NCBI GenBank assembly: GCA_000472185.1
Contig: AVDB01000001.1
Coordinates: 372,001-436,000, forward strand
Source: Rhodobacteraceae bacterium HIMB11
Lineage (GTDB): Bacteria > Pseudomonadota > Alphaproteobacteria > Rhodobacterales > Rhodobacteraceae
Reading direction: 5' to 3'
Length of the DNA stretch: 64,000 nucleotides
Shown here: positions 14,955-55,592 of the stretch, in pieces
How positions within the stretch are numbered: position 1 is the first letter of the stretch
How the letters are laid out: every line of letters starts with the position of its first letter
Program-made: the position numbers and the translations under genes
The notes under the pieces: generated by a model
The model's database searches: none
Told to the model about the DNA's origin: nothing
Seen by the model: the letters and a program-made list of their open reading frames with translations, nothing else

Positions 14955-15785
14955 TTGAACAGAAAAATTAGAAAAGCCGTCTTTCCCGTTGCTGGTTTTG
15001 GTACCCGCTTTCTACCTGCGACTAAGGCGATGCCGAAAGAGTTGCTGCCAATCGTAGATAAACCTTTGATCCAATACGCTGCTGAAGAGGCGATTGCCGC
15101 AGGTATCGACACCCTGATTTTTGTAACTGGCCGAAATAAGCGCGCCATTGAAGATCACTTTGATGCGAATAATGAATTGGAAAACATGCTGCGCGCCAAG
15201 GGCAAAGATGCGCAGGCCGACATGGTGCGCAATATCATCCCAGAGGGAGTGGAATGCATATTTGTGCGTCAGGCCGAACAGTTGGGGTTAGGTCATGCAG
15301 TATTGTGCGCGGAGCGTGCTGTTGGCGGTGATCCCTTTGCAGTACTTCTGGCGGACGATTTCCTTACGGATTGCGAACCCGGTGTGACGGCAGATCTGGC
15401 GCAAGCTTTTGCAAGTACTGGCAAATCACAGCTTTCGGTGATGGAGGTTGATGGGCCTGATATCTCAAAATACGGGGTTGTTGTGCCAAATGGGGCCGGT
15501 GCGGGTATTGCAGGCTTGGTTGAAAAACCCGATGCGGATGATACGCCCTCAAACCTGGCCTCCATCGGTCGATATGTTCTAACGCCTGATATCTTTGACA
15601 CTTTGCGCGGGCTCAAGGCGGGATCCGGCGGAGAAATTCAATTGGCCGATGCGATCAATATCCATGCACAGCAGGGCTCGGTCGAAACCGTGCGTCTGAA
15701 TGGACGACGGTTTGATTGTGGGTCAGTGGATGGGTTTTTGGATGCGATCATACATATATCATCAAGATTAGGTTCCAGGCGTTAG
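14955..15785 (+). CDS. galU: UTP-glucose-1-phosphate uridylyltransferase, copy 1 (3'-truncated)
   Basis: Makes UDP-glucose from UTP and glucose-1-P. The nucleotidyltransferase signature FPVAGFGTRFLPATKAMPKE (near residue 10) with the catalytic Arg and Lys, KPLIQYAAEEA, VTGRNKRAIEDHFD, LADDFL (metal Asp), GLVEKP and FDCGSVDGF are all present. Normal GalU proteins continue for roughly 25-30 residues of helix after the GSVDGF region. Here only LDAIIHISSRLGSRR follows, so the C-terminus is lost or replaced. It starts with TTG. Bases 14972-15737 are a near-identical direct repeat of 54791-55556. The catalytic core is complete, so activity is possible, but oligomerisation may be affected. Confidence 0.85.
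   Translation: MNRKIRKAVFPVAGFGTRFLPATKAMPKELLPIVDKPLIQYAAEEAIAAGIDTLIFVTGRNKRAIEDHFDANNELENMLRAKGKDAQADMVRNIIPEGVECIFVRQAEQLGLGHAVLCAERAVGGDPFAVLLADDFLTDCEPGVTADLAQAFASTGKSQLSVMEVDGPDISKYGVVVPNGAGAGIAGLVEKPDADDTPSNLASIGRYVLTPDIFDTLRGLKAGSGGEIQLADAINIHAQQGSVETVRLNGRRFDCGSVDGFLDAIIHISSRLGSRR
14972..15737 (+). repeat. 766-bp galU direct repeat, left copy
   Basis: Aligns without gaps to 54791-55556. The encoded stretch differs by six residues in about 255, and long nucleotide runs are identical. Both copies stop at the same codon region (GSVDGF). The 39.8-kb spacing encloses most of the glycan locus. Confidence 0.95.
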
Positions 15786-15913: not shown

Positions 15914-17542
15914 ATGAAAATTGATAAAATTAACAGAATTTTTGAGGGTCGTACAGTTGACTTGTTCGACGGTGAATTGATTACAATTGAAACGGTCGCA
16001 CGTTACAAGCCAATTAAAAGTAACTTATTTTCGAGTAGATCGATTAATAAATTTGATAATAAAGCTTTATCAGTGAAACACCTTACCATGGCATCGTCAG
16101 CTGCAATGAGCAACGCGGATGTTTGCATGCTCGACGGGGCGGCAATCAAAACACTTGCCGTTAGATATCCGAGTGATGCGCAGTATGTAGTGGCTCGACT
16201 GGCCCTTCGTTCAAGCTGGTTTTTAGGCTTACCAGGGTTATTGCGCAGATTAGCTCTTGGGCGTGTAAAATTGGGCGGTCTGCTGGTTCTGAAAGAGACG
16301 CAGCGAAAACGTAGTTTTTGGCTAATAATTAAGCGTACGAAAACAACTACCCCAAGTAATCGTCTGTTACTTCCTAAAAGTATTGGGGTTGAGGCGTTCC
16401 TTTCATGGTTGAGGGCTGAACAAATTAATTATGTTGTACCGCGTTTTTTTGAACAACTACCAAAGTTGCATCGTGACGGGGGAGACCTTGATCTTTTAGT
16501 TGCGGATGAACACGCTGACAAAGTCATAGCTAGAATAAAATCATACGAAAGTGTTTTAACCGATCGTTTGTCGGACTCCATTCCGATTGGCATGCACAGT
16601 ATTTCCTTGGCGGCAGGAATCCCATATTATCCGCCGCAATTGGCTATTGGAGTGCTAGAACGTTCCGTCGAGGGGCCTGCAGGCTCTCGTGTGCCAATGC
16701 CAATTGATGAGCTGCATATGCTTATCTACCATGCACTTTATCACAGTAAAAGCTATTCGTCTGGCATACCCAGTGCTCATAACGGTAAAATGGAAAATCC
16801 ACCAGAAAATGACTATTTTGGAATTATCACAAAGAAAGCGGAAAAACTTTGTCTCAATGTGGGTGGGACTATGGAGGAATTAGACCATTATATGGCGCAA
16901 GCCGGATGGCAACCTAAGCGTGATACTCTTCAAAAAATAAGTGAAAGAAATGCTTGGGTTCGCGATCACTTCTTCGGTGATCAACCGCCAAAATTTACTG
17001 GTTTGACGGTGTTTATTTTAAAGGAAGAAGCAGTCTCTAATGGACTTACAGAAAAAGTGGTGGAAACAATGTCGCTCAGTGGTGTCAAAATCATTGATGT
17101 TTTGCAGCTTACAGTCGAGCAAAAAGAGCGGGCTATTCGGGAAATTCGAGGAGGTAATTGGACTGGTCCTGGGCGAAAAACAGAAGGCCTGTTTCCTGCA
17201 GCATTTATAATCGGCGTAGATCCGAATTGCGTTGGCCTAAAGTCGAAGTACGCCTATGAGTATGAGCGCTTCTGGTCTAAAAGGCATAAAAGTAAAGTTC
17301 GTGAGAAATTTGATGTTGACGGTGCTGCGAGTATTGTTCATGCCGCTGACAATACGTTTGAAGCAATTGAATATCTTGAGGCATGCATTGAGAAAAGTCT
17401 AAAAGAAAAGCTTTTCGTTAAGATAGATCAAGCGGTGTCAAGTGTTCGTTTCGCCCAAGCAAAACGCGCCGTTTCGTATAATTATTTGTCACATCTGGTG
17501 AAATTCAGATTGCGAGATTACGCAACGAAGGTTTTATCATGA
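15914..17542 (+). CDS. nucleotidyltransferase-like / NDK-like fusion protein, paralogue 1
   Basis: 542 aa of three parts. Residues 1-150 are of unknown type. Residues about 155-270 hold a nucleotidyltransferase-fold signature, LHRDGGDLDLLVADE near 188, with a DxD metal pair, then YHALYHSKSYSSGIP. Residues about 365-490 look like nucleoside diphosphate kinase: TVFILKEEAVSNGL matches the NDK start (ALIKPDAV..GL) with the ATP-site Lys near 372. VREKFD plus IVHAADNTFEAIEYLE match the NDK tail (IRGDFG...HGSDS.ESA..EI) with the catalytic His near 475. This fusion is my reading and not a named family. It is followed with a 4-base overlap by a full-length paralogue. Confidence 0.7.
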   Translation: MKIDKINRIFEGRTVDLFDGELITIETVARYKPIKSNLFSSRSINKFDNKALSVKHLTMASSAAMSNADVCMLDGAAIKTLAVRYPSDAQYVVARLALRSSWFLGLPGLLRRLALGRVKLGGLLVLKETQRKRSFWLIIKRTKTTTPSNRLLLPKSIGVEAFLSWLRAEQINYVVPRFFEQLPKLHRDGGDLDLLVADEHADKVIARIKSYESVLTDRLSDSIPIGMHSISLAAGIPYYPPQLAIGVLERSVEGPAGSRVPMPIDELHMLIYHALYHSKSYSSGIPSAHNGKMENPPENDYFGIITKKAEKLCLNVGGTMEELDHYMAQAGWQPKRDTLQKISERNAWVRDHFFGDQPPKFTGLTVFILKEEAVSNGLTEKVVETMSLSGVKIIDVLQLTVEQKERAIREIRGGNWTGPGRKTEGLFPAAFIIGVDPNCVGLKSKYAYEYERFWSKRHKSKVREKFDVDGAASIVHAADNTFEAIEYLEACIEKSLKEKLFVKIDQAVSSVRFAQAKRAVSYNYLSHLVKFRLRDYATKVLS

Positions 17543-19158
17543 TTAAAATTGACAAATTATTAAAAGACCAAACGATAGAATTATTTGATGGTTCTGAGGA
17601 CCTAGCAACTGATTTGGTGCCGTTCGCCACAAATAAAGCCACAGCATTTTTCCGCCAACGGCCTGCGATCGCAATCTCAGGTATTAAGTTTGCTGAGTAT
17701 TCAGCAATTCTCGAAGCGGCTGATTGCATGGCAAGCGTCTGCATGCTGAACGATCGTGCCATAAAAGTACTGGTGGCAATGTATCCCAGTGCTCCAAAGT
17801 ATGTCTTGGTTCGCTTGGCGCCAAGGCTTGCTTGGTTATTGGGCTGTTTTGGTTTATTGCGGCGGATTATCCAAGGACTAGTGAAAGTTGAAGGTATTGC
17901 AGCTTTACCCAAATGTGGTGGAAGAGGTAAAACATTATGGCTGGTATTGGAGCAGTCCGGAACAGATGTGCATCAAATCCCGGTCATTCCAAAGTCTTTA
18001 GGTATCCAATCATTTCTGTCGTGGCTAAAGCTTGAAAAGATTAATTATATTGTATTGCGTTTCTTTGAAGTACTTCCCGATTTACACCGTCAGGCAGGGG
18101 ATTTGGACTTGTTAATTTCAGACCAGGATCGACCTCGCGTTTTAAAATACTTAAGATCAGTTAGTAGTCAAATGGGCGAGGATGCAGGCGATATCCGGGT
18201 TGGTCTCCATTCAGTTTCAGGTGAGCCAGGCATGATACCCTACTATCCGCCACCGCTAGCGCGGGAAATGTTGTCACGAGCCGTAACGGGTCCAGCAAAT
18301 GCATCAATTCCTGCTCCAAAAGACGCCCTGCTTGCAATGATGTACCATGTTTTATATCACAGCAAGAAGGGCTATTCATCAGGAATCCCCAGTAATCTTT
18401 CGAAACATACAGATCGGCATCCCGAAAATGACTACGCCGAATTAATAAACAGCATGGCCTCCAAATTAGACCTGGATGTTGGACGCACTATGGAAGACAT
18501 GGACAACTTTTTAGCAAGTGAGGGCTGGCGTCCTAAAATTGATACGCTAGCAAAAATAGCAGAGACGAATGCATGGGTACGTGACAGATTTTTTTCTAGT
18601 ACAAAAAGTCATGCGGAAGGCTTAGCGGTATTCGTTTTGCGAGAGTGGGTCGTTCGCGCTAATTTAGTGGATAACTTCATCTCTGAAATTACTGCTTCAG
18701 GCTTTGTCGTAATACGGCGCAAAACTCTAAACAATATCGAGAAAAAGTATGTGAGTGATCACCTGAGAGGCGGAACGTGGGGCGCTGATGATGATGGAAA
18801 TACTGAACTTTGGCAGCCTTCTGAAGTGTTAGTACTGATAGATCCAGAATGTGCAAGTTTGCCATCAACCTACGCTGCTGGCTTTGAACATTTTCGAATT
18901 CGCAAGTTGAAAGAGCGTCTACGTGAAAAGTTCGATAATTTACGCAGTTCAGTACATTCAACCGATAATTCCATTGAGTCATGGGAATATATTGAAACTT
19001 GTTATCCTGATGACATTAAAATTATCAAACATGAAATTGCAACTTATTCAAAACGATCGATTGTTTCCCTCTTAAAGCAGCTGCTCAACCCAAATTACGT
19101 AAAACACTCTCTGAAGCATTCACTTAGAAGTTTTTTAATTCGGAATTTTTTAACATAG
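17539..19158 (+). CDS. nucleotidyltransferase-like / NDK-like fusion protein, paralogue 2
   Basis: 539 aa, clearly homologous over its whole length to the preceding gene and overlapping it by ATGA, so the pair is a tandem duplication under joint translation. The nucleotidyltransferase motif is LHRQAGDLDLLISD (near 187). The NDK-like part begins LAVFVLREWVVRANL (near 360), where the NDK ATP-site Lys is replaced by Arg, and ends VREKF-like LREKFD then SVHSTDNSIESWEYIE, keeping the candidate phospho-His. Loss of the Lys in one copy suggests that the two paralogues have diverged in role, perhaps as a heterodimer with one altered kinase site (inference). Confidence 0.68.
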   Translation: MIKIDKLLKDQTIELFDGSEDLATDLVPFATNKATAFFRQRPAIAISGIKFAEYSAILEAADCMASVCMLNDRAIKVLVAMYPSAPKYVLVRLAPRLAWLLGCFGLLRRIIQGLVKVEGIAALPKCGGRGKTLWLVLEQSGTDVHQIPVIPKSLGIQSFLSWLKLEKINYIVLRFFEVLPDLHRQAGDLDLLISDQDRPRVLKYLRSVSSQMGEDAGDIRVGLHSVSGEPGMIPYYPPPLAREMLSRAVTGPANASIPAPKDALLAMMYHVLYHSKKGYSSGIPSNLSKHTDRHPENDYAELINSMASKLDLDVGRTMEDMDNFLASEGWRPKIDTLAKIAETNAWVRDRFFSSTKSHAEGLAVFVLREWVVRANLVDNFISEITASGFVVIRRKTLNNIEKKYVSDHLRGGTWGADDDGNTELWQPSEVLVLIDPECASLPSTYAAGFEHFRIRKLKERLREKFDNLRSSVHSTDNSIESWEYIETCYPDDIKIIKHEIATYSKRSIVSLLKQLLNPNYVKHSLKHSLRSFLIRNFLT

Positions 19159-19169
19159 TTAAAGTAAAC

Positions 19170-19862
19170 ATGCGAGGATCACCGTATATCGAAATTATTG
19201 GGTTAGCTGGTTCAGGTAAAACTACACTTCGATATCAACTAATAAACGAGGCGAGTAAAGTAGGCCATAGTTATAGATATAGACAGCCGCTCGGATCCAA
19301 TTTTTTAAAGCGTATTCAGATTATTATAAAGTCTCTCAGAATTCTGTTTTCAGACCTAAGCATTCTAAAGTGGATCACCGCGCGGCCATCAGGTCCTTAC
19401 TCGAAAACTCCATACGCCAAAAAGATTACCAAAAGTCTGAAGTTTCGTGTCATCATAGAGAGCGTTATCGTTCGCAATATGCTATCTGAAGATCCAATAA
19501 CGCTTGTAAATGACGAAGGTATAATTGGTAAAGCTGTGGTTTTATCTCTGCTTCTTGAGAAAGACCTGAGAGATCTCTGCACTTTTTTAAATATTTTACT
19601 TCCAACCGACATGCAGATTTTCTTTGTGGAAATTGAGGTGGAAAAAGCGATCAGCCAGATGAATAATCGTGAGGTATCACTTCCTTTTTGGGACGAAATG
19701 GATGAGCAGCTTAAAGAAAAATTATTTGATAGCTGTAATGCTCGGTACCTTGATTTAATCCAATCTTTATCAAGTCAAAACGGATTGTCATATTTTGTAA
19801 TAACTAATAATGGTTCAGTAAAAGAACTTTCTGCAAGCATTATTGAGCATATAAGTAATTAG
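19170..19862 (+). CDS. P-loop kinase-like protein 1
   Basis: 230 aa. Walker A IIGLAGSGKTTLRYQL is at residues 9-24. A conserved acidic segment LVNDEGIIGKA is near 112, in the place of the DR/DE motif of thymidylate-kinase-like enzymes. A lid-like ISQMNNREVSLPFWDEM is near 166. The substrate is unknown; small-molecule or lipid-linked sugar kinases of this build are common in glycan loci. It begins 12 bases after the fusion-protein gene and ends before a convergent methyltransferase gene. Confidence 0.72.
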   Translation: MRGSPYIEIIGLAGSGKTTLRYQLINEASKVGHSYRYRQPLGSNFLKRIQIIIKSLRILFSDLSILKWITARPSGPYSKTPYAKKITKSLKFRVIIESVIVRNMLSEDPITLVNDEGIIGKAVVLSLLLEKDLRDLCTFLNILLPTDMQIFFVEIEVEKAISQMNNREVSLPFWDEMDEQLKEKLFDSCNARYLDLIQSLSSQNGLSYFVITNNGSVKELSASIIEHISN

Positions 19863-19944
19863 AAACTAAATTAGAAGTCATATAACTTATAGAAAATATA
19901 TAATGTGTTTAACGCCCGAAACTGAGAGCAGATCACGGCCACAT

Positions 19945-20685
19945 TTATTTCGTAGCAATTAACATGATGAATGGTGACGAAAGACGACATTTGATTGGTA
20001 TTCGTCTACCTAAAAATGCGAGGGGACGTAGCATATTAAATATAATTTTCTGAAAGGTGGACGGTTTATCGTTTTCCCACCAAAAATCAAATACACCTCC
20101 GGTATACTCCAGACAACTTATGCTCAACTTATGTCGTTGCGCAGTGTCATAAAAATACTTTAGGTTCATAATTTTGGTATTATGCCGCTCCAAATTTTGT
20201 CTATCTAAAAGATAGTGTAGCCAGAATTGTAGTCCCGAAAAATTTGGTATTTCTAGGATAAGTGTTCCTCCGGGTCTTAGCGCTTCAATGTGTTTATCAA
20301 CAATAGGACCTACATCTAGAAAATGTTCAATAAAACCAAAAGAGCAAGTTAAGTCATAGAGCCTAGGTGGTGTCCATCGTAGGAAATCTTCTTCGTAAAT
20401 AGTTGCATTCTCGATTCCAAATTTTCGTAAGGTGTTGGTGGTTGTGTGCGTTGCCCCTTCCACATAGTCTATACCTTCTACATTGAAACCAAAATCTTTT
20501 CCTAGGTGTCCGAGAAAAATACCTGGCACGCATCCTATTTCTAAAGCATATTTTTCATCATTACCTGGCATAATATGTTCGTTAAATTGCCTTCTGAATG
20601 GGTTATTGTCGTAGGTCATATCCAATTTATTGGATTTTTTCCAACTTTGCTCCCAATACTCTTTATTAGCTAATTCATTATTCAT
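19945..20685 (-). CDS. class I SAM-dependent methyltransferase
   Basis: 246 aa from the ATG at 20685, which overlaps the upstream glycosyltransferase stop as ATGA; an upstream in-frame Met would add 15 residues but sits inside that gene. SAM motif I is YALEIGCVPGIFLGHLGKDF near residue 48, followed by acidic VEGIDYVEGA (motif II) and the motif IV region LTCSFGFIEHFLD, as in methyltransferase type 11/23. LRPGGTLILEIPNF is the usual post-III strand. Probably methylates a sugar or terminal group of the glycan (inference from context). Confidence 0.85.
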   Translation of the reverse strand: MNNELANKEYWEQSWKKSNKLDMTYDNNPFRRQFNEHIMPGNDEKYALEIGCVPGIFLGHLGKDFGFNVEGIDYVEGATHTTTNTLRKFGIENATIYEEDFLRWTPPRLYDLTCSFGFIEHFLDVGPIVDKHIEALRPGGTLILEIPNFSGLQFWLHYLLDRQNLERHNTKIMNLKYFYDTAQRHKLSISCLEYTGGVFDFWWENDKPSTFQKIIFNMLRPLAFLGRRIPIKCRLSSPFIMLIATK

Positions 20686-21824
20686 TGTACTGACTTCAGC
20701 TCTGTTATTTTTTTGTTCAGCTTTAGGCATGTTATATATTGATCAGTCGCATAAGACACATAATACTTTAGGAGAAATACATTTGGATTATTCAATTTAT
20801 TATCATTTAAATTTAGGCTCTTTAACATAGCAGATGCGAGTGCCTTGGCATTTGATGGTGGCACTAGAAACCCGAGGCGACCGTCTTCAAGAATTTCCCT
20901 CGGGCCGCTTCGGACATCAGTGCTGACGGTGCGACAGCCCAGCGCCAGCGCTTCTACTAGGACTGTTGGCAGACCTTCACGGGTAGATGAAAGTACGAGT
21001 ACATTCGCTTCGCGGAAAAGTGGATAAGGGTTTGTAACATGGCCTAATAGTGCAATTCGTTCAGTTAATCCTAAGAGTTTAATTAATTTCAATATATTTG
21101 CTCGCTCGGGCCCATCTCCAACTATAAGTAGACGTGAAGGTTTAAGTTTTAAACTTTCTGCAAAAGCCTTAATGAGCGTTGGTATGTCTTTCTCTTTAGA
21201 CAGACGTCCTACTGACAAAAAAATTTTTTCATCAATTTTACTGAAAGGATGGGGGCACTCTTTTTTACTGGCCTTAAAAAGGCTGTCGTCAATTATAGGA
21301 TTATAAATTGTTTTTACACTATTTTCAGCCAACAAAGCATATTTTTCCACCTGTCGTGCGGCATCATTTGAAACGGCAATCACTATATCAGAAAAGCGAT
21401 ATAAGATTGCGATGCAATAGCGTGCGATTATCTTTTTTTTCCAGGTCAACGTCTCCAACCCATTTTCTAGGGAGGTATGTTCGGCAATTATCACCCGCGA
21501 ACTCACGCGACTAATGACTTTAGCGAGTATGGTGACGCAATTTAAATGGAAGGATGCAGATATAATGTTGGCAGGTTTTCGACTTTTAAGCATTTTTGAA
21601 AGTTTGAAAAGGGCTGAACTTGCGCTGGTACCGGGAACGGAACGTATTAATATCTCTGTGCTTACAGTTGTTTGATCGCTATCATCGAGTACCCATAGCT
21701 CTACTGAAAGACCGCGATCAAACATCGTTTCCGCAAGTTTTATAGTCACTTTACCTAGCCCACCTGAAAGGGTAGGGCTCAAAAACACGACGTCTGCAGG
21801 GTATTGTGTGAAAGTGTTCGACAT
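20682..21824 (-). CDS. GT4 family glycosyltransferase
   Basis: 380 aa GT-B enzyme. The N-terminal acceptor domain begins ADVVFLSPTLSGGLGKVTIK, with the Gly-rich loop of GT4. The donor domain has EKIFLSVGRLSKEKDIPTLI near residue 205 and the EX7E-type stretch SSTREGLPTVLVEALALGCR near 293 with both Glu. Nucleotide-sugar donor unknown. Coupled by ATGA to the downstream methyltransferase. Confidence 0.92.
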   Translation of the reverse strand: MSNTFTQYPADVVFLSPTLSGGLGKVTIKLAETMFDRGLSVELWVLDDSDQTTVSTEILIRSVPGTSASSALFKLSKMLKSRKPANIISASFHLNCVTILAKVISRVSSRVIIAEHTSLENGLETLTWKKKIIARYCIAILYRFSDIVIAVSNDAARQVEKYALLAENSVKTIYNPIIDDSLFKASKKECPHPFSKIDEKIFLSVGRLSKEKDIPTLIKAFAESLKLKPSRLLIVGDGPERANILKLIKLLGLTERIALLGHVTNPYPLFREANVLVLSSTREGLPTVLVEALALGCRTVSTDVRSGPREILEDGRLGFLVPPSNAKALASAMLKSLNLNDNKLNNPNVFLLKYYVSYATDQYITCLKLNKKITELKSVQ

Positions 21825-21851
21825 TGACTTCTACAGTATGGAATATAAGGT

Positions 21852-22550
21852 ATGCCACTCATGAAATCCAATAGCAAGCTGTACATAGAGTTTGTTGGTC
21901 AGCATACTGCCGGTAAAACCACGGTTATCCATGATATTGTGGATCGTGACCTATTAGAACCAATAAAAGCAATTTATCCACAGAAAATCAAACGCTCACG
22001 CTATGACTTAGTATTCAGTATGCCACGTTTATTTTTCTTCCACATTTTTGATCTTTTATTCCTTTTTCAGTTTTTCAAACGAAACGTGAAATGTAATTGG
22101 ATAAATTATCATTCGGCCGGAAGGCACATGTGGAAAATGATATTTTTACACCCTTACTTTTCAAAGTTCGATTTTGACGTTTGGATGAAGGATGACTTAT
22201 TACACCTGTTACCGCGGCTGGAGTTGAAGCATGGCGTTGATACTTATGATGTATTTAACGAATTTTTTAATCGTTTTTCACATTGGTACAGCGGGCTAGT
22301 GTTCATAGACCTACCTTATGAAGACATGAACGCGCGTTTTAATGAGCGCTTCAAAAACCGTCCGCATCAAAGGCGTAAAAATAGGTCCAGAGTGTATGAG
22401 CGTGCGTATGTTCAAAATAAAGTTCTTAAGCATGTTTTGCTCCAACAAAATAAAGTACGCGTTCTTGTTTTGGATGGAAAATCAGAAGTTGCAATAAAAT
22501 CGGTACAAGTTGTCAAATTCATTGAGGAGTTATTGTATGAAAAAAAGTAA
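21852..22550 (+). CDS. P-loop kinase-like protein 2
   Basis: 232 aa. Walker A is FVGQHTAGKTTVIHDI near residue 14-30. A hydrophobic, aromatic segment (FFFHIFDLLFLFQFFKR) follows, which may contact a membrane or lipid. VWMKDDLLHLLPRLE near 115 occupies the DE/DR position, and a very Arg-rich lid (RFNERFKNRPHQRRKNRSRV) lies near 160. Such a basic lid suits phosphoryl-donor binding. It overlaps the next kinase gene by 14 bases. Substrate unknown. Confidence 0.68.
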   Translation: MPLMKSNSKLYIEFVGQHTAGKTTVIHDIVDRDLLEPIKAIYPQKIKRSRYDLVFSMPRLFFFHIFDLLFLFQFFKRNVKCNWINYHSAGRHMWKMIFLHPYFSKFDFDVWMKDDLLHLLPRLELKHGVDTYDVFNEFFNRFSHWYSGLVFIDLPYEDMNARFNERFKNRPHQRRKNRSRVYERAYVQNKVLKHVLLQQNKVRVLVLDGKSEVAIKSVQVVKFIEELLYEKK

Positions 22551-23214
22551 TACTTTTGTTACATTTATAGGATCCCGCGGCTCCGGAAAGACAACAGTAG
22601 CAGATGAGTTAGCAAAAAATTTATCTAATTTAGGCTCAAATGTGTTGCGGCAGCATCAGGGCCTTTCCGATGGAAAAAGTTTTAGAGGCATTTCGAAGGC
22701 GATTATGCTTTGGCGATACTTTGATTTGGAGATCATCAAAAAAATAGGTTTTTGTGGCCGCGCACGTCGCACAATACCGAGCCTGTATCGATTATATCTG
22801 CCATTAGCATTCTCAAAAGATCTTACGGACTTAAATTTACATGGAGATGTTCTTATCTACGACTCAAATTTTTTACGTGGTATGATTCAAGCTTTTGTGA
22901 GCCAAGAAATACAACTAGCGGAAATTAGAAATTTTTATGAAGAGAAAATTTTATCAAAGATCGACCAGTTGATTATTGTTGTGATAGCTACCGACCCTAA
23001 GATAGCTGTGGAAAGATGGCTGGCTCGTGACTCAGTTAAAATTTGTGATCAGAAATTCGACGAAGAGATCTCTGTTAGAGAGCAGCTCCAAGGTAATATT
23101 CAAGTTGTAGTGCAAGATTTATCGCAGTGTTTAAAGGTGGAAGTAATTGAGCTAAGGGGTGAAAATTCGCCTAGTGATAATGCAAAGCAAATAGTCAATC
23201 ATTTAACAAATTAG
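22537..23214 (+). CDS. P-loop kinase-like protein 3 (thymidylate-kinase-like)
   Basis: 225 aa from the ATG at 22537, chosen because GAGGAG precedes it by a normal distance; an upstream in-frame start at 22510 would lie deeper inside the previous gene. Walker A is FIGSRGSGKTTVADELAKNL. VLIYDSNFLRGM near 105 is in the DR-motif position, and the lid segment is ERWLARDSVKICDQ near 160. It is closest in build to dTMP-kinase-like proteins, but with no evident thymidine site, so the substrate is unknown. Confidence 0.72.
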   Translation: MKKSNTFVTFIGSRGSGKTTVADELAKNLSNLGSNVLRQHQGLSDGKSFRGISKAIMLWRYFDLEIIKKIGFCGRARRTIPSLYRLYLPLAFSKDLTDLNLHGDVLIYDSNFLRGMIQAFVSQEIQLAEIRNFYEEKILSKIDQLIIVVIATDPKIAVERWLARDSVKICDQKFDEEISVREQLQGNIQVVVQDLSQCLKVEVIELRGENSPSDNAKQIVNHLTN

Positions 23215-36666: not shown

Positions 36667-36697
36667 GTGATGATTTACGCAGTATTTGGAGGTATTT

Positions 36698-37345
36698 ATG
36701 TTTGAAGGTTCTATTGAGAGTTTGTTAGCGGCCCAATCAGCGGCATCTTATAATTTTCTGAATGTCGCAATAGCCTTCTTATTGACATTTTTTCAGGGTT
36801 TAATTTTGGTATACGTCTATCAGCGGCTTTTCTCTGGACCATTACTTCAGAGAAATTTTTCAGCAACAATTCTGTTGGTGGGTTTGATAACAACAGGATT
36901 AATCACAGCTATTAACGGCAATCTATCTTTATCTTTAGGCATGGTTGGTGCTCTTTCCATCGTTCGGTTTAGAACTCCAGTAAAGGACCCGATCGATCTA
37001 ATTTTTATTTTTGGATCGATTGCGAATGGCGTGACAAATGCTGTGAGTTTATTTCTGTTATCGTCAATAACCACAGTGACTATTTCTATTGTGGCACTTT
37101 ATTTAGTTTCTTCGCTCAATAAGCGTTTCAAGGCAGTTCTTGTTATCCGAGGGGATATCGACATCGAAGCATATAATCCGTTTGATCAACACAGAAATAT
37201 TAATGGGCAGTTAAAAAGTGCTCAAAAATATGGTGACATCGTCGAGCAAGTTTATGAGCTCGAAACTGACCAAAAAAATCTTGAGTTGCTTAAAGATAAC
37301 CTAAAAAAGCTTGGATACGATTTTGATTTAGCTTCGATAAAATGA
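36698..37345 (+). CDS. DUF4956 membrane protein
   Basis: 215 aa from the ATG at 36698, selected because GGAGGT lies at 36688-36693; an upstream TTG would include that site in the coding sequence. Four hydrophobic segments are followed by a cytoplasmic C-terminal domain. The motif SLSLGMVGALSIVRFRTPVK followed by DPIDLIFIFGSIANG is diagnostic of DUF4956. Genes of this family are known to sit beside VTC-domain and CotH-like genes, as here. Function unknown. Confidence 0.88.
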   Translation: MFEGSIESLLAAQSAASYNFLNVAIAFLLTFFQGLILVYVYQRLFSGPLLQRNFSATILLVGLITTGLITAINGNLSLSLGMVGALSIVRFRTPVKDPIDLIFIFGSIANGVTNAVSLFLLSSITTVTISIVALYLVSSLNKRFKAVLVIRGDIDIEAYNPFDQHRNINGQLKSAQKYGDIVEQVYELETDQKNLELLKDNLKKLGYDFDLASIK

Positions 37346-40014
37346 TGCATAAATTTTGGCAACGGACGTTAACAACATTCTTGATGGCTCTGTCATTACT
37401 GACATTTACGCTTTTATATTATAGCCACAAGGCTAATATTTTTTGCGAAAAACTTTTAACAATTCAAAGTAACGTAAATCTTTCTGGTGAGTGCTCTAAT
37501 GAGTACAAGCACTTGATCGTGCGCGATACCTTAATGCAGGATTTTAGAAAATTAAAACACACAGTGATCAATCAGTTAGATCCAGTTTATGAAAAGCTTA
37601 CTCTGCCAAAAGTTGAAATTTTTATTGCTAAAAATGAATTGTTAAACTTAAATTCTGATCTTCCAGTTTCAGGAAGAACTTATGTTAATGCACACCTAAA
37701 AATTTCTAACTTTTTACCTGATGACAATTTTTCTCCGGAATTAACGAATGCCACGCCTATTAAACTGAGATATCGTGGAGATTCTCCTTGGCATTGGTTT
37801 GGTACTGTTAAATCGTTAAGAGTAAAACTTCCTAAAGGCTTCACATTGCTTGGGCAAAGGACGTTCAACTTGATCAACGCACCACGTGGATTGTACTTGG
37901 CGACAGATCAGCTTTTCGAAAGTATGTCGACAAGTTTGGGCCTAATCACGCCACATGTTCGCCCAGTCTCGTTGATCGTAAACGGTGAATTCATGGGTGT
38001 GTTAGTTTATCTTGATCAACCCAATGAGGGCATGCTACGTAAATCCAATATAATGCCCGGTGATCTGTACAAGGGTGACAACATTTTTGGCACTTCAACT
38101 GGCGCAGTTGATAAAGACGGAGCGAGTGAACTTTGGGGCACTCCCTCTCAGTGGCGAAAAATGGCAAGTAGGAACGCAGAGAAAAAAACTAATCGTGACA
38201 ATATCGATCATTTAATATCTCAAATCCAGAAATTAGAAGGTAAAAAATTCTATCAATTTTTTGAGCAAAATTTTAATGTTGATGCTTTCCTAAAATTCTA
38301 TGCATTGGATATTGTCACAGGCAGTAGACACCACGATTTCGCGCACAATCACTATTTGTATTTCGACCCTTACAAAGGCAAAGCTGCCCCAGTCCAATGG
38401 GACATTCGCTATATAACGGATTTAGAATTAAAATATACGGGTGTAAATCCTCTGTTTAATAAGGTTATTCAAAACCCGAAATACCGACATAAAATTGATC
38501 TTTTTGTTGTCGAGTTGCTAACCGAATATACCCCAGTAAAAATCAGTAAGGCTTTAGATGAATATTATAAGGTTTTTCAAAATGATCTAAGTTACGATAT
38601 TTTTAGAGATACGTTAGAAACTTATGCTCATCCAAAATTAGATTTTTACCTCCAGTATTTTAAACTTAAACGTTTGGATTCTGACATAAAGAATTTTATA
38701 AATACCTATGAAAAACGCCATGATTATCTTAGGGAAATTTATCGCATTAAAGATCTGAAATTATTTCTACAACAATCTAAGGTAAATGGGCGCATCAAGG
38801 CGCGTATTGAGTTCGAAACATTTGGAAGTTTAGTCGTAAATTCAGAGGGTTATTCACTTTATGATGAAAATGCATTAAATTTTATTGACAGTTCAAGCGA
38901 ACAACTTGTGGGAGAAATATCGCTAGAAAAAAGAGATGATAAGTTCGGATATAATCGTGCATTCAATTACTACTATGGCTCAAACCGAGTAATAGCGGCA
39001 GAAACTTCTTATATTTTGGACTTTGAAAATGAAAATGACTTGAATATTTTTGTGGCGTCGCTTGAAGATATGTTGGGTAATAAACCAGCAATTGAGATAA
39101 ATCGACTGCCAAATTCTACCATGATTTTGGAGCCGGTAGAGTATACATTTCAAAATAAAATACAAACAGTCCCGATGGAGCATGTTTGGTATGGTGAAAA
39201 GGTCATAGAGCAAGATGTGATTGTGCCCACTAACGAGGCACTTAAAATAATGCCGGGGACGGATATAAAGTTAGCGCCAGGCGTAAATTTGTTAATTTAT
39301 GGAAAGCTGACTATTGCGGGTAATAAAGAACAGCCTGTCACAATCGATAGACTCATTGCAGATAAAGCATGGGGTGTAATTGCGATAAATGGAAGTGGGG
39401 CAAATGGCAGCGAAGTAAACCATGTAAAAATACATGGTGGTTCGTCTCTTATGCAGCCGATGATAGAATACCCAGGCCAATTTAATATTCATAACGCTCA
39501 AGATATTCGCATTCATGAACTAGATCTATCAGGGAACACTGTTGGAGATGACAACATGCACATAGCGTATTCAACTGTAAATCTGACGGACGTTTTCATT
39601 CATGAGTCTAACAGTGATGGTCTTGATGCAGATATCTCAAAAGTCTTGGCGAAAAGATTGAAAATACATGATGCGGGAAATGATGGCTTAGATTTGATGA
39701 ATTCTTCTTTCGTGGGATCTTATTTAAGTATATCAGAAACAGGCGACAAGTGTATATCCAATGGCGAAGGCTCAACTACTAGAATTTCAAGCTCTTTATT
39801 GCAGCAATGCGAAATAGGAATTGAAAATAAAGACATGAGCATCATCGAGATTGAAACAACCGAAATTGCAAACACAAGCAACTTAGATATTAATCTATAT
39901 CGTAAAAACTTATATTACACTAACTCAGGTACGGTATATTTAAAAGGGTATGTTGATGAGACGTTCATCAAGGTAAAAGTAGAAGATGGCGGGCAAATCG
40001 TATATGAAAATTAA
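37342..40014 (+). CDS. CotH kinase family protein with C-terminal beta-helix
   Basis: 890 aa, anchored by one N-terminal membrane segment (ALSLLTFTLLYYSH), so mainly periplasmic or exported. Residues ~140-450 carry the CotH kinase-like fold: LRYRGDSPWHWFGTVKSLRV, TFNLINAPRGLYLATDQLFE, GVLVYLDQPNEGMLRKSNIM and VQWDIRYITDLELKY (the DxR-type active-site region). Residues ~640-880 form a right-handed beta-helix (VNHVKIHGGSSLMQP, SNSDGLDADISKVLAKRLKI, DAGNDGLDLMNSSFVGSYLS). CotH-type proteins can phosphorylate protein substrates; here a glycan or protein target is unknown. Overlaps DUF4956 by 4 bases. Confidence 0.85.
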   Translation: MMHKFWQRTLTTFLMALSLLTFTLLYYSHKANIFCEKLLTIQSNVNLSGECSNEYKHLIVRDTLMQDFRKLKHTVINQLDPVYEKLTLPKVEIFIAKNELLNLNSDLPVSGRTYVNAHLKISNFLPDDNFSPELTNATPIKLRYRGDSPWHWFGTVKSLRVKLPKGFTLLGQRTFNLINAPRGLYLATDQLFESMSTSLGLITPHVRPVSLIVNGEFMGVLVYLDQPNEGMLRKSNIMPGDLYKGDNIFGTSTGAVDKDGASELWGTPSQWRKMASRNAEKKTNRDNIDHLISQIQKLEGKKFYQFFEQNFNVDAFLKFYALDIVTGSRHHDFAHNHYLYFDPYKGKAAPVQWDIRYITDLELKYTGVNPLFNKVIQNPKYRHKIDLFVVELLTEYTPVKISKALDEYYKVFQNDLSYDIFRDTLETYAHPKLDFYLQYFKLKRLDSDIKNFINTYEKRHDYLREIYRIKDLKLFLQQSKVNGRIKARIEFETFGSLVVNSEGYSLYDENALNFIDSSSEQLVGEISLEKRDDKFGYNRAFNYYYGSNRVIAAETSYILDFENENDLNIFVASLEDMLGNKPAIEINRLPNSTMILEPVEYTFQNKIQTVPMEHVWYGEKVIEQDVIVPTNEALKIMPGTDIKLAPGVNLLIYGKLTIAGNKEQPVTIDRLIADKAWGVIAINGSGANGSEVNHVKIHGGSSLMQPMIEYPGQFNIHNAQDIRIHELDLSGNTVGDDNMHIAYSTVNLTDVFIHESNSDGLDADISKVLAKRLKIHDAGNDGLDLMNSSFVGSYLSISETGDKCISNGEGSTTRISSSLLQQCEIGIENKDMSIIEIETTEIANTSNLDINLYRKNLYYTNSGTVYLKGYVDETFIKVKVEDGGQIVYEN

Positions 40015-40621
40015 GCCATTGTTTTTTACTATTTTGATACTTCTTGCTCTCTCCTATTCGGCGATGCAAGCCTATAATTTATTTCACTTTACCTCATATA
40101 AATCTGAAATAGAATATGTTAAGAAAGAAAAAGTCCATGAATTCTCTCTAAGACTTACAAACGCACAAATATTTGAAAAATTACAAGAAATAGAGAAAGC
40201 GTACGTCAATAATAGAGAATTAATAGGTTTAATTTTACCTAAATTAAATAAAGAGCTGCGGCCAAGAAGCGTCGTAAATAGAGAACAAATTTTGTCAGCT
40301 GTTAACGCGGCTGGCGACGGCTGGCCTCTTGTTGGTAGATCTTATTTTTTGATTTTTGTAGCTGATATTGAAAAAAAAGTATCTTTGTCAGTGATTGGTA
40401 CCGGAAGTAAATATCTAAAAAGATTAAAAAATCTAAAGGTATTCGGAGACGAAGTAATTTCTCAAAAATGGATGTACGATCGTCTAGAAGTTGAGTTTGG
40501 TCGTGTCGGTTTTCATATCATTGATTTAGTTCCTGACATCCCTTTTAAGCCATCGGAGTTTATCACCGGGAATAATGATACAAGACTGTTGCTGCCGAAA
40601 TTGGAGTTAGTAAATGAATGA
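40004..40621 (+). CDS. membrane-anchored protein of unknown function in CotH/VTC set
   Basis: 205 aa from the ATG at 40004, which overlaps the CotH stop by 11 bases; a start 18 bases upstream is possible. One N-terminal transmembrane helix (PLFFTILILLALSYSAMQAY) precedes a soluble domain with EKLQEIEKAYVNNRELI and SYFLIFVADIEKKVSLSVIG. I do not recognise a family. The tight packing between CotH and VTC genes implies a shared complex. Confidence 0.7.
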   Translation: MKIKPLFFTILILLALSYSAMQAYNLFHFTSYKSEIEYVKKEKVHEFSLRLTNAQIFEKLQEIEKAYVNNRELIGLILPKLNKELRPRSVVNREQILSAVNAAGDGWPLVGRSYFLIFVADIEKKVSLSVIGTGSKYLKRLKNLKVFGDEVISQKWMYDRLEVEFGRVGFHIIDLVPDIPFKPSEFITGNNDTRLLLPKLELVNE

Positions 40622-41318
40622 ATACCGTGAGGAATATAAGTATAAGCTAGACTTGCTCGGTTTACACACCTTGAAGCACGAGCTAGTGAAATTCATGCGT
40701 CTCGATCCACATTGTGACGCTGTTTCAGGCTATTTAATAAATTCAATTTATTTTGATGATTTAGACAACAATTCTTACTATGAAAAGCTTGCGGGTGCGC
40801 CCGATAGAAATAAGTTCCGAGTAAGGTATTACGGCGCAAAACCTGATTTTGTGAAATTCGAAATAAAGTCTAAGAATAATCATTTAAGTCGCAAAAGTGC
40901 ATTTCGACTCAGTATGGAAGAGTTTAATCACTTGAAATCAGGGAATAAAGAAATTTTGAATCGGCATATCAAAACTGATGCTGATTTCCGGGCGATAAGA
41001 TTATTCCAATCATATGATTACCATCCACAAATTATAATTTCGTATAAAAGATACCCATTTGTTAAAGAAATTGGTAATGTCAGAGCTACGTTGGACTATG
41101 ATATCAGGTGCCAGAGATACAGTATAGGGGCCTCGAAAACGCCTATGAGGCCCGTTTCCCTGGACTTCGCTATTTTAGAAATAAAGTATTCACGTTATTT
41201 TCCCGATTTCATTTCTTCATTATTGTCAAAGAATAAAAGTCTCATAAGGCTTGCTGCTGGGAAATATACACTTGCTCAATCAGTTCTTGATGAATTGTTA
41301 GACAGGGATTTCATTTAA
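40614..41318 (+). CDS. VTC-domain protein (polyphosphate polymerase-like)
   Basis: 234 aa matching the VTC catalytic tunnel fold: YREEYKYKLDLLGLHTLKHE at the start, INSIYFDDLDNNSYYEKLAG, RVRYYGAKPDFVKFEIKSKN and ISYKRYPF, with final YTLAQSVLDEL. Many Arg/Lys and Glu residues alternate along strands, as in tunnels that bind triphosphate. In eukaryotes VTC4 makes polyphosphate from ATP; bacterial homologues beside DUF4956 and CotH are of unproven function. Overlaps the preceding gene by 8 bases. Confidence 0.87.
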   Translation: MNEYREEYKYKLDLLGLHTLKHELVKFMRLDPHCDAVSGYLINSIYFDDLDNNSYYEKLAGAPDRNKFRVRYYGAKPDFVKFEIKSKNNHLSRKSAFRLSMEEFNHLKSGNKEILNRHIKTDADFRAIRLFQSYDYHPQIIISYKRYPFVKEIGNVRATLDYDIRCQRYSIGASKTPMRPVSLDFAILEIKYSRYFPDFISSLLSKNKSLIRLAAGKYTLAQSVLDELLDRDFI

Positions 41319-54740: not shown

Positions 54741-54779
54741 TGCAAGAATAAATTTTTTTCTGGTAGAGGTAATTTGAAA

Positions 54780-55592
54780 ATGGATTTACGAAAAGCTGTC
54801 TTTCCCGTTGCTGGTTTTGGCACGCGCTTTCTGCCTGCAACCAAGGCGATGCCAAAAGAGTTGTTGCCAATCGTTGATAAGCCTTTGATCCAATACGCAG
54901 CGGAAGAGGCGATTGCCGCGGGTATCGACACCCTGATTTTTGTGACGGGCCGAAATAAGCGCGCGATCGAAGATCACTTTGATGCGAATAATGAATTGGA
55001 AACCATGCTGCGCGCCAAGGGCAAAAATGCGCAAGCCGACATGGTGCGCAATATCATCCCAGAGGGAGTGGAATGCATATTTGTGCGTCAGGCCGAACAG
55101 TTGGGGTTAGGTCATGCAGTATTGTGCGCGGAGCGTGCTGTTGGCGGTGATACCTTTGCAGTACTTCTGGCGGACGATTTCCTTACGGATTGCGAACCCG
55201 GTGTGACGGCAGATCTGGCGCAAGCTTTTGCAAGTACTGGCAAATCACAGCTTTCGGTGATGGAGGTTGATGGGCCTGATATCTCAAAATACGGGGTGGT
55301 TGTGCCGAATGGGTCAGGTGCGGGAATTGCGGGCTTGGTTGAAAAACCCGATGCGGATGATACGCCCTCAAACCTGGCCTCCATCGGTCGATATGTCCTG
55401 ACCCCTGATATCTTTGACACTTTGCGAGGGCTCAGGGCGGGATCAGGCGGGGAAATACAATTGGCCGATGCAATTAATATCCACGCACAGCAGGGCTCGG
55501 TCGAAACCGTGCGTCTGAGCGGTCGACGGTTTGATTGTGGGTCGGTGGATGGGTTTATTAGGGCCACTAATCACGAATATGTACACAGATAA
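54780..55592 (+). CDS. galU: UTP-glucose-1-phosphate uridylyltransferase, copy 2 (3'-truncated)
   Basis: 270 aa from the ATG at 54780 (AGAGGT at a normal distance; a TTG six bases upstream is too close to it). Catalytic motifs are as in copy 1, with six residue changes in the shared ~255 residues. After GSVDGF it continues only IRATNHEYVHR, different from copy 1, so both lack the usual C-terminal helix. GalE and GalU together supply UDP-Gal for Glf. Confidence 0.85.
   Translation: MDLRKAVFPVAGFGTRFLPATKAMPKELLPIVDKPLIQYAAEEAIAAGIDTLIFVTGRNKRAIEDHFDANNELETMLRAKGKNAQADMVRNIIPEGVECIFVRQAEQLGLGHAVLCAERAVGGDTFAVLLADDFLTDCEPGVTADLAQAFASTGKSQLSVMEVDGPDISKYGVVVPNGSGAGIAGLVEKPDADDTPSNLASIGRYVLTPDIFDTLRGLRAGSGGEIQLADAINIHAQQGSVETVRLSGRRFDCGSVDGFIRATNHEYVHR
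54791..55556 (+). repeat. 766-bp galU direct repeat, right copy
   Basis: Same orientation as 14972-15737 and gap-free. Homology ends at the same base position of the gene in both copies. Confidence 0.95.

Follow-up and report, generated by a model that had tools for sequence, protein, structure and literature searches.

What do two adjacent genes do in a putative surface-polysaccharide locus when each of them joins a nucleotidyltransferase (NTase) fold to a nucleoside diphosphate kinase (NDK) fold? The question was raised by a stretch of 64,000 nucleotides from Rhodobacteraceae bacterium HIMB11 (contig AVDB01000001.1, positions 372,001 to 436,000), which is called the window here, its genome being G000. 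The two genes are P0001 (15914..17542, + strand, 542 aa) and P0002 (17539..19158, + strand, 539 aa), and the last 4 bases of P0001 are shared with the start of P0002. P0001 consists of an N-terminal part (residues 1-145), an NTase-fold domain (about 146-354), an NDK-fold domain (about 361-500) and a helical tail, and the layout of P0002 is identical. The original prediction, made from the letters of the window, described tandem paralogues of about 540 aa that carry a GDLDLL motif near residue 190 and an NDK-like C-terminal region, grouped with three small kinase-like genes. Its open reading frames (ORFs) were right, the two proteins are 40% identical (215/544 columns, E 7e-126), the motif occupies residues 190-195 of P0001, and the fusion was borne out by profiles and structure models. 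The explanation that we tentatively favor, at somewhat less than an even likelihood, is that P0001 and P0002 are a two-domain phosphoryl-transfer pair, probably a hetero-oligomer, that builds or decorates the surface polysaccharide of the locus. It builds on folds, conserved residues, pairing, linkage to kinase-like domains and, in three relatives, motifs divided between two paralogues, all of which were observed.

The NDK-fold domain lies at 16994..17413 (+ strand) in P0001 and at 18610..19026 (+ strand, residues about 358-496) in P0002. No Pfam or NCBIfam model scored above its cut-off for any of P0001 to P0005. For the NDK family (PF00334), P0001 gave a weak match (E 0.0065, 16.8 bits vs a cut-off of 27) and P0002 gave none. 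Relatives with the domain order NTase then NDK are referred to as type I, and those with NDK then NTase as type II. When 11 type I proteins carrying the NDK domain were scanned with Pfam (P0001, P0002 and those from loci L006, L008, L010, L011, L012, L015, L043, L044 and L047), one was above the NDK cut-off (L047, 749 aa, from G1204; 28.2 bits, profile positions 4-132 of 135), two were below it (P0001, and L011 with 13 bits) and eight had no match. A profile of 16 family members matched a profile of nine housekeeping NDKs with E 6e-8 to 9e-8 over 130-140 columns (E 6.4e-8 at 140). The score of this match was 49.3, while 200 column-shuffled decoys reached 21.2 at most, and it stayed at 44.7 without L047. 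With the NDK domains of the window pair alone, hhalign gave no match to the NDK profile (E 0.69); the whole family was needed. The AlphaFold model of P0001, made from four sequences, was modest (mean predicted local distance difference test score (pLDDT) 66, predicted template modelling score (pTM) 0.45), with ten-residue block means between 52 and 88 in the NDK region. All 50 matches listed by Foldseek for this model were NDKs (best E 3.1e-4, template modelling score by target about 0.5-0.6), and VIA superimposed 135 residues of the region of about 361-517 on NDK with a Z of 10.1 and a root-mean-square deviation of 3.4. On the profiles and the models, the C-terminal domain of P0001 and P0002 is predicted to have the NDK fold. 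A sequence search of the PDB with P0001 returned a single, unrelated match (E 0.96). The N-terminal part (P0001 1-145) and that of some relatives looked methyltransferase-like by eye, an impression that we do not put forward as a claim; no Pfam match was found there and the model was poor in this part.

Residues were counted in an alignment of 16 type I sequences. All 16 have His at the phospho-His position of NDK, which is His476 in P0001 (codon 17339..17341, + strand) and His473 in P0002 (codon 18955-18957); the fold and the His, whose absence the original prediction had named as evidence against a fusion, were both found. Also invariant are an RGGxW motif in the middle region of the domain (beginning at R412 in P0001) and Asp479, whereas Arg463 (the position of NDK Arg105), Lys459 and Glu483 are each kept in 15/16. 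At the position of NDK Lys12, 15 of the 16 sequences have Arg and only P0001 has Lys (K370). The ATP-site Lys of the first copy and the Arg of the second had been read correctly; yet it is the first copy, not the second, that is the exception, because Arg is the norm. NDK Asn115 is kept in 8/16. The type I domains have a kept His centre and a remodelled nucleotide site.

One could take the NDK-fold domain for a local nucleotide recycler, or for a sensor of the nucleoside triphosphate to diphosphate ratio acting via His phosphorylation, that serves the NTase-fold domain or neighboring sugar-activating enzymes and leaves the glycan untouched. Such a role, which would include keeping up a supply of nucleoside triphosphates, would fit the kept fold and His, and housekeeping NDK has its own gene in this genome, so that the copy in the locus has a separate task. 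However, the nucleotide-site residues of NDK are not kept as a set, and the remodelled site together with the invariant RGGxW suggests that the substrate has changed. A shared flow of substrate is suggested by the way in which motifs are divided with the kinase-like domain, described below. We regard a recycler or sensor as unlikely.

The NTase-fold domain was located at 16349..16975 (+ strand) in P0001 and at 17980..18594 (+ strand, residues about 148-352) in P0002. Residues 146-358 of P0001, modelled alone with AlphaFold 2, gave a good model (pLDDT 82.5, pTM 0.81). The best Foldseek match was MenT1 (E 5.5e-3), with none at 1e-3, and the first 22 among the 50 matches listed by VIA were chains of the NTase superfamily. 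The leading Z values were 7.5 for MenT1, 6.7 for ANT(2''), 6.2 for TM1012 and 5.7 for LnuA, followed by MenT3 and FKRP (5.1); all are under 8 and speak for an NTase fold in the model, not for a function. The DxD pair (D191/D193 in P0001) is intact in both window copies and in 12/16 type I sequences, and a YHxxYHK helix motif is kept in P0001 and P0002. The position of the third acid is Gly in both copies (Gly226 in P0001), and is D or E in 9/16 (D 7, E 2).

This Gly would suit a dead scaffold, in which the NTase part is inactive, P0001 and P0002 are acceptor-binding subunits, and the NDK-fold His is the sole active center or there is none. Degenerate domains are indeed common in the family, and the DxD is lost in the three B paralogues introduced below. 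Against this, both window copies and most relatives retain the DxD, and both copies retain the helix motif. In addition, the loss of one acid is not necessarily fatal, since the RelA synthetase site is without one of the three acids (PMC11646218); a missing acid need not abolish activity. We consider a dead scaffold improbable. Because of the remodelled NDK site and the missing third acid, "NDK" and "nucleotidyltransferase" should be read, for P0001 and P0002, as names of folds and not of activities.

Type I proteins were found in 15 genomes. In the family of the window, 7/384 genomes had one (G000, G065, G099, G126, G163, G282 and G1548), and the same search gave two other matches, a type II gene in G271 and an NTase-P-loop fusion in G279. 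Among 385 genomes of the class, type I was present in G312, G556 and G580 besides G000, and two other matches were type II (G464, a short ORF, and G663). The planctomycete phylum (246 genomes) contributed G1023, G1076, G1178 and G1204, with a type II gene in G1143 and an NTase-P-loop fusion in G1235 as two other matches, and the spirochaete phylum contributed 1/198, G1024 (Marispirochaeta). The three-domain protein of Marispirochaeta lies in a glycan locus (L012 1-15000) in which several NeuB-like synthases and ORFs resembling CMP-sugar synthetases were noticed by eye. No relative of P0001 was detected in viral contigs, and the 16-row alignment offered no stretch of sufficient conservation for a scan of them; tblastn gave no match in plasmids for P0001 or for the type II protein of G464, and none in plasmids and phages for that of G1143. 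The family is rare and apparently undescribed.

The five type II proteins (L043 10380-11573, L051 7926-9320, L054 8028-9353, L055 7960-8658 and L081 3722-4954) were scanned with Pfam without a match above cut-off, and by eye all five have the phospho-His. Their NDK part matched that of type I with E 1.2e-11 and NDK with E 7.9e-5 over 66 columns, in each case with 0/60 decoys. A three-row type II profile, built without window rows, was run across the phylum and matched 1/398, solely the window's own NTase domain (E 2.9e-6).

The sporadic distribution would also suit a toxin-antitoxin or anti-phage module that happens to sit among glycan genes, with the P-loop proteins as partners, and the structures that matched the NTase domain best were MenT1 and antibiotic nucleotidyltransferases. 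The MenT1 match is at the level of the fold only, however, and family members in other genomes are linked to kinase-like domains. A search with the PADLOC models at E up to 1 gave nothing for P0001, P0002 and P0003, a single weak match for P0004 (E 0.011) and, for P0005, matches that cover its P-loop region. Such a module is very improbable in our judgment.

In 10/15 genomes, a protein-kinase-like domain is either part of a type I protein or encoded next to it. Fused domains were seen in G1023, G1024 and G1204 and, within the pairs of G065, G099, G126 and G1548, on the A member; an adjacent gene carries the domain in G163 and G282 and, weakly, in G580 (E 0.0022, no Pfam match). The fused domains were called by motif and mutual similarity, and that of G1548, absent from the fused-kinase profile, matched it at E 5.7e-89. 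The adjacent gene of G282 is above the Pfam Kdo/WaaP cut-off, and its counterpart in G163 is under the cut-offs. The type II gene of G663 has a divergent neighbor (L054 7080-8174) that encodes a kinase protein above the Pkinase and APH cut-offs; the N-terminal part of this protein looked Rossmann-like by eye. The kinase-like domain was not seen in the loci of G556, G1076 and G1178 or on the 3 kb contig of G312, and Pfam found no kinase in P0001 or P0002.

Neighboring pairs were found in 6/15 genomes, a count that includes the short contigs of G312 (3 kb) and G1204 (8 kb): G000, G065, G099, G126, G1548 and G556, the last with type I beside type II in convergent orientation. In G065, G099 and G126 the motifs are divided between the two paralogues. 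The A member keeps the DxD and the kinase D/N/D residues and has Arg in the phospho-His place of an NDK remnant, whereas in the B member the NDK His is still present and both the DxD and the kinase D/N/D residues are lost. The A remnant matched the family profile (E 0.002, reached by 0/60 decoys) and did not match the NDK profile, for which 51/60 decoys were equally good. A fourth-looking A/B pair in G1548 (L080 4587-8046, from a 340-contig assembly) was left out of this count because its NDK regions are split over different reading frames. The DxD and the His are present in both window copies, neither of which carries a kinase domain. With intact and decayed motifs shared out between the two paralogues in three relatives, a joint role of the domains becomes open to test, the expectation being that all three activities are required together. 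The paralogues-plus-kinases system of the original prediction survived in part: pairs recur and linkage to a kinase-like domain is frequent, but the linked domain resembles protein kinases, and P-loop genes are linked in only two genomes.

The three P-loop ORFs with distinct Walker A motifs had been reported within about 4 kb, and they are present, with weak family matches: P0003 (19170..19862, + strand, GLAGSGKTT), which starts 11 bases past P0002 and is weakly thymidylate-kinase-like, P0004 (21852..22550, + strand, GQHTAGKTT), with no noteworthy family match, and P0005 (22537..23214, + strand, GSRGSGKTT), which has an ATG start, with a TTG at 22510 also possible, and overlaps the end of P0004. 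The thymidylate kinase cut-off (PF02223, 27 bits) was not reached by P0003 (20.3) or P0005 (16.4), and P0004 had no match. Remote kinship connects P0003, P0005 and a gene that lies 2.6 kb from the Marispirochaeta protein, and at the sensitivity used P0004 had no match to any of these three. The P-loop survey covered 14 type I genomes (without G1548) and 30 genomes without type I, with a profile that did not contain P0004. Matches over the full length were confined to G000 and G1024, which had both supplied profile rows, and in 3/30 genomes without type I a short stretch matched at the end that carries the Walker A motif. Proteins that fuse an NTase-like part to a thymidylate-kinase-like P-loop part exist in G1235 (L052 8843-10411, a planctomycete-phylum genome) and G279 (L082 3702-5915, in the family of the window), with PF02223 scores of 24.0 and 23.7 bits vs 27, and for this reason a functional link of NTase-type with P-loop proteins is plausible.

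Given the 4-base overlap and the 11-base gap, P0001, P0002 and P0003 probably form a single operon. Between P0003 and P0004, a methyltransferase gene (19945-20730) and a glycosyltransferase gene (20682-21824) lie on the opposite strand. The locus was assigned to surface polysaccharide because GalU, flippase-like, glycosyltransferase and epimerase genes surround P0001 to P0005; several glycosyltransferases, an aminotransferase and an acetyltransferase-like protein are among the neighbors. Promoter and terminator scans showed no enrichment over shuffles. The ORFs 14955-15785, which is GalU above cut-off, and 54774-55592 have one identical 20-residue peptide, so a duplicate of GalU may be present in the locus. 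Elsewhere in the window, DUF4956, CotH kinase and VTC-domain proteins are clustered at 36686-41318 (+ strand). The guanine-plus-cytosine content is 0.52 at the start of the window and about 0.34-0.40 across 32-46 kb; this drop within positions 1-46000 may mark acquired segments.

In the phosphoryl-transfer pair that we propose, a kinase would first phosphorylate a sugar, a polyol or a lipid-linked acceptor. In many relatives this could be the protein-kinase-like domain, and here perhaps P0003, with or without P0004 and P0005, would take its place. The invariant His of the NDK fold would then take up phosphoryl from a nucleotide and pass it to the phosphorylated intermediate, and the NTase-fold domain would complete a phosphodiester or diphosphate link, in a way akin to FKRP-type or PsmN-type NTase-fold proteins. 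The chemistry, the order of the steps, the donor, the acceptor, the hetero-oligomer and the replacement of the protein-kinase-like partner by P0003 to P0005 are thus all conjectural parts of the proposal. Activation or phosphorylation of a sugar, polyol or lipid-linked intermediate by the locus, as first suggested, is compatible with these sequences. A more far-reaching version joins the kinase, the NDK-fold phospho-His carrier and the NTase-fold transferase in one phosphorelay that makes phosphodiester- or diphosphate-linked glycan decorations, with active sites split between paralogous subunits; we hold it to be somewhat unlikely.

Several findings weigh against the phosphoryl-transfer pair. 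NDP-kinase chemistry may be lost in the type I family because of the Arg at the Lys12 position and the loss of Asn115 in half of the sequences. The third acid is replaced by Gly in both window copies, and the hG[GS] motif of NTases, as defined in PMC6965139, is not recognisable in them; its place reads YVVPRFFEQLP in P0001 and YIVLRFFEVLP in P0002. The fused kinase-like domains are below the Pfam cut-offs (the best is ABC1 in L047, 21.2 vs 22.9 bits), and no kinase-like partner was found in the whole G000 genome with the fused-kinase profile, a search that had no positive control and did not include a Kdo-type profile. P-loop linkage to type I genes extends to 2/14 genomes examined (G000 and Marispirochaeta G1024). 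In all three A remnants another His is conserved about 13-18 residues before the substituting Arg, so that the A members likely, though not certainly, lost the functional His. The A/B division may be one event, since the three genera belong to one family. Finally, the gene context of the relatives was assessed for part of the loci, by eye and from the starts of the ORFs: G065, G099 and G126 adjoin flippase, glycosyltransferase or sugar-transferase-like ORFs, G163 adjoins a glycosyltransferase-like ORF and L048 has an MBOAT-like neighbor, and no glycan gene was recognised among the neighbors in L050.

The individual folds are already known, while the combination of NTase and NDK, the RGGxW motif and the divided motifs appear to be new. 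A search of open-licence papers recognised no NTase-NDK fusion and no NDK domain in a glycan locus. Among known families, NTP_transf_5 (PF14907) gave a weak match to P0002 (E 0.016) with a score far under the cut-off (15.3 vs 31.2 bits), and no match to it was found in G000. FKRP is kin to LicD, and no LicD-type Pfam match was found in P0001 or P0002. FKRP transfers ribitol-phosphate from CDP-ribitol onto a glycan (PMC6965139). It shares the NTase fold with P0001, as the VIA comparison indicated, but has a stem domain where P0001 and P0002 have the NDK fold, and the window copies are without the third acid and hG[GS]. In lasso-peptide tailoring by PsmK and PsmN, the kinase phosphorylates a Ser and the nucleotidyltransferase-like protein is needed for a hexose on the phosphate, and the review is undecided whether PsmN itself attaches the hexose (PMC9266682). 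The pairing of a kinase with a nucleotidyltransferase-like protein is the shared element, likened here by its description; the setting there is a peptide and not a glycan, and an NDK-fold domain is not reported in the passages cited (PMC9266682). WbdD, an O-antigen kinase-methyltransferase, has a eukaryotic-type kinase on a multidomain protein of a glycan locus and phosphorylates the end of the glycan, and neither an NTase nor an NDK fold is named for it in the cited excerpt (PMC3482155). A kinase-like domain is likewise carried by relatives of the window proteins, but not by the window proteins themselves.

The comparison with NDK itself (PF00334) extends furthest. The fold over about 135 residues, the invariant phospho-His position and the Arg at the Arg105 position are shared, and one relative is above the Pfam cut-off, whereas the type I family differs in its Arg for Lys12, in keeping Asn115 in half of its members, in RGGxW and in the fused NTase fold. 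NDKs are textbook housekeeping enzymes, and a family with the phospho-His kept, the nucleotide site remodelled, and an NTase and often a kinase-like partner in sugar loci would represent a new use of the NDK fold.

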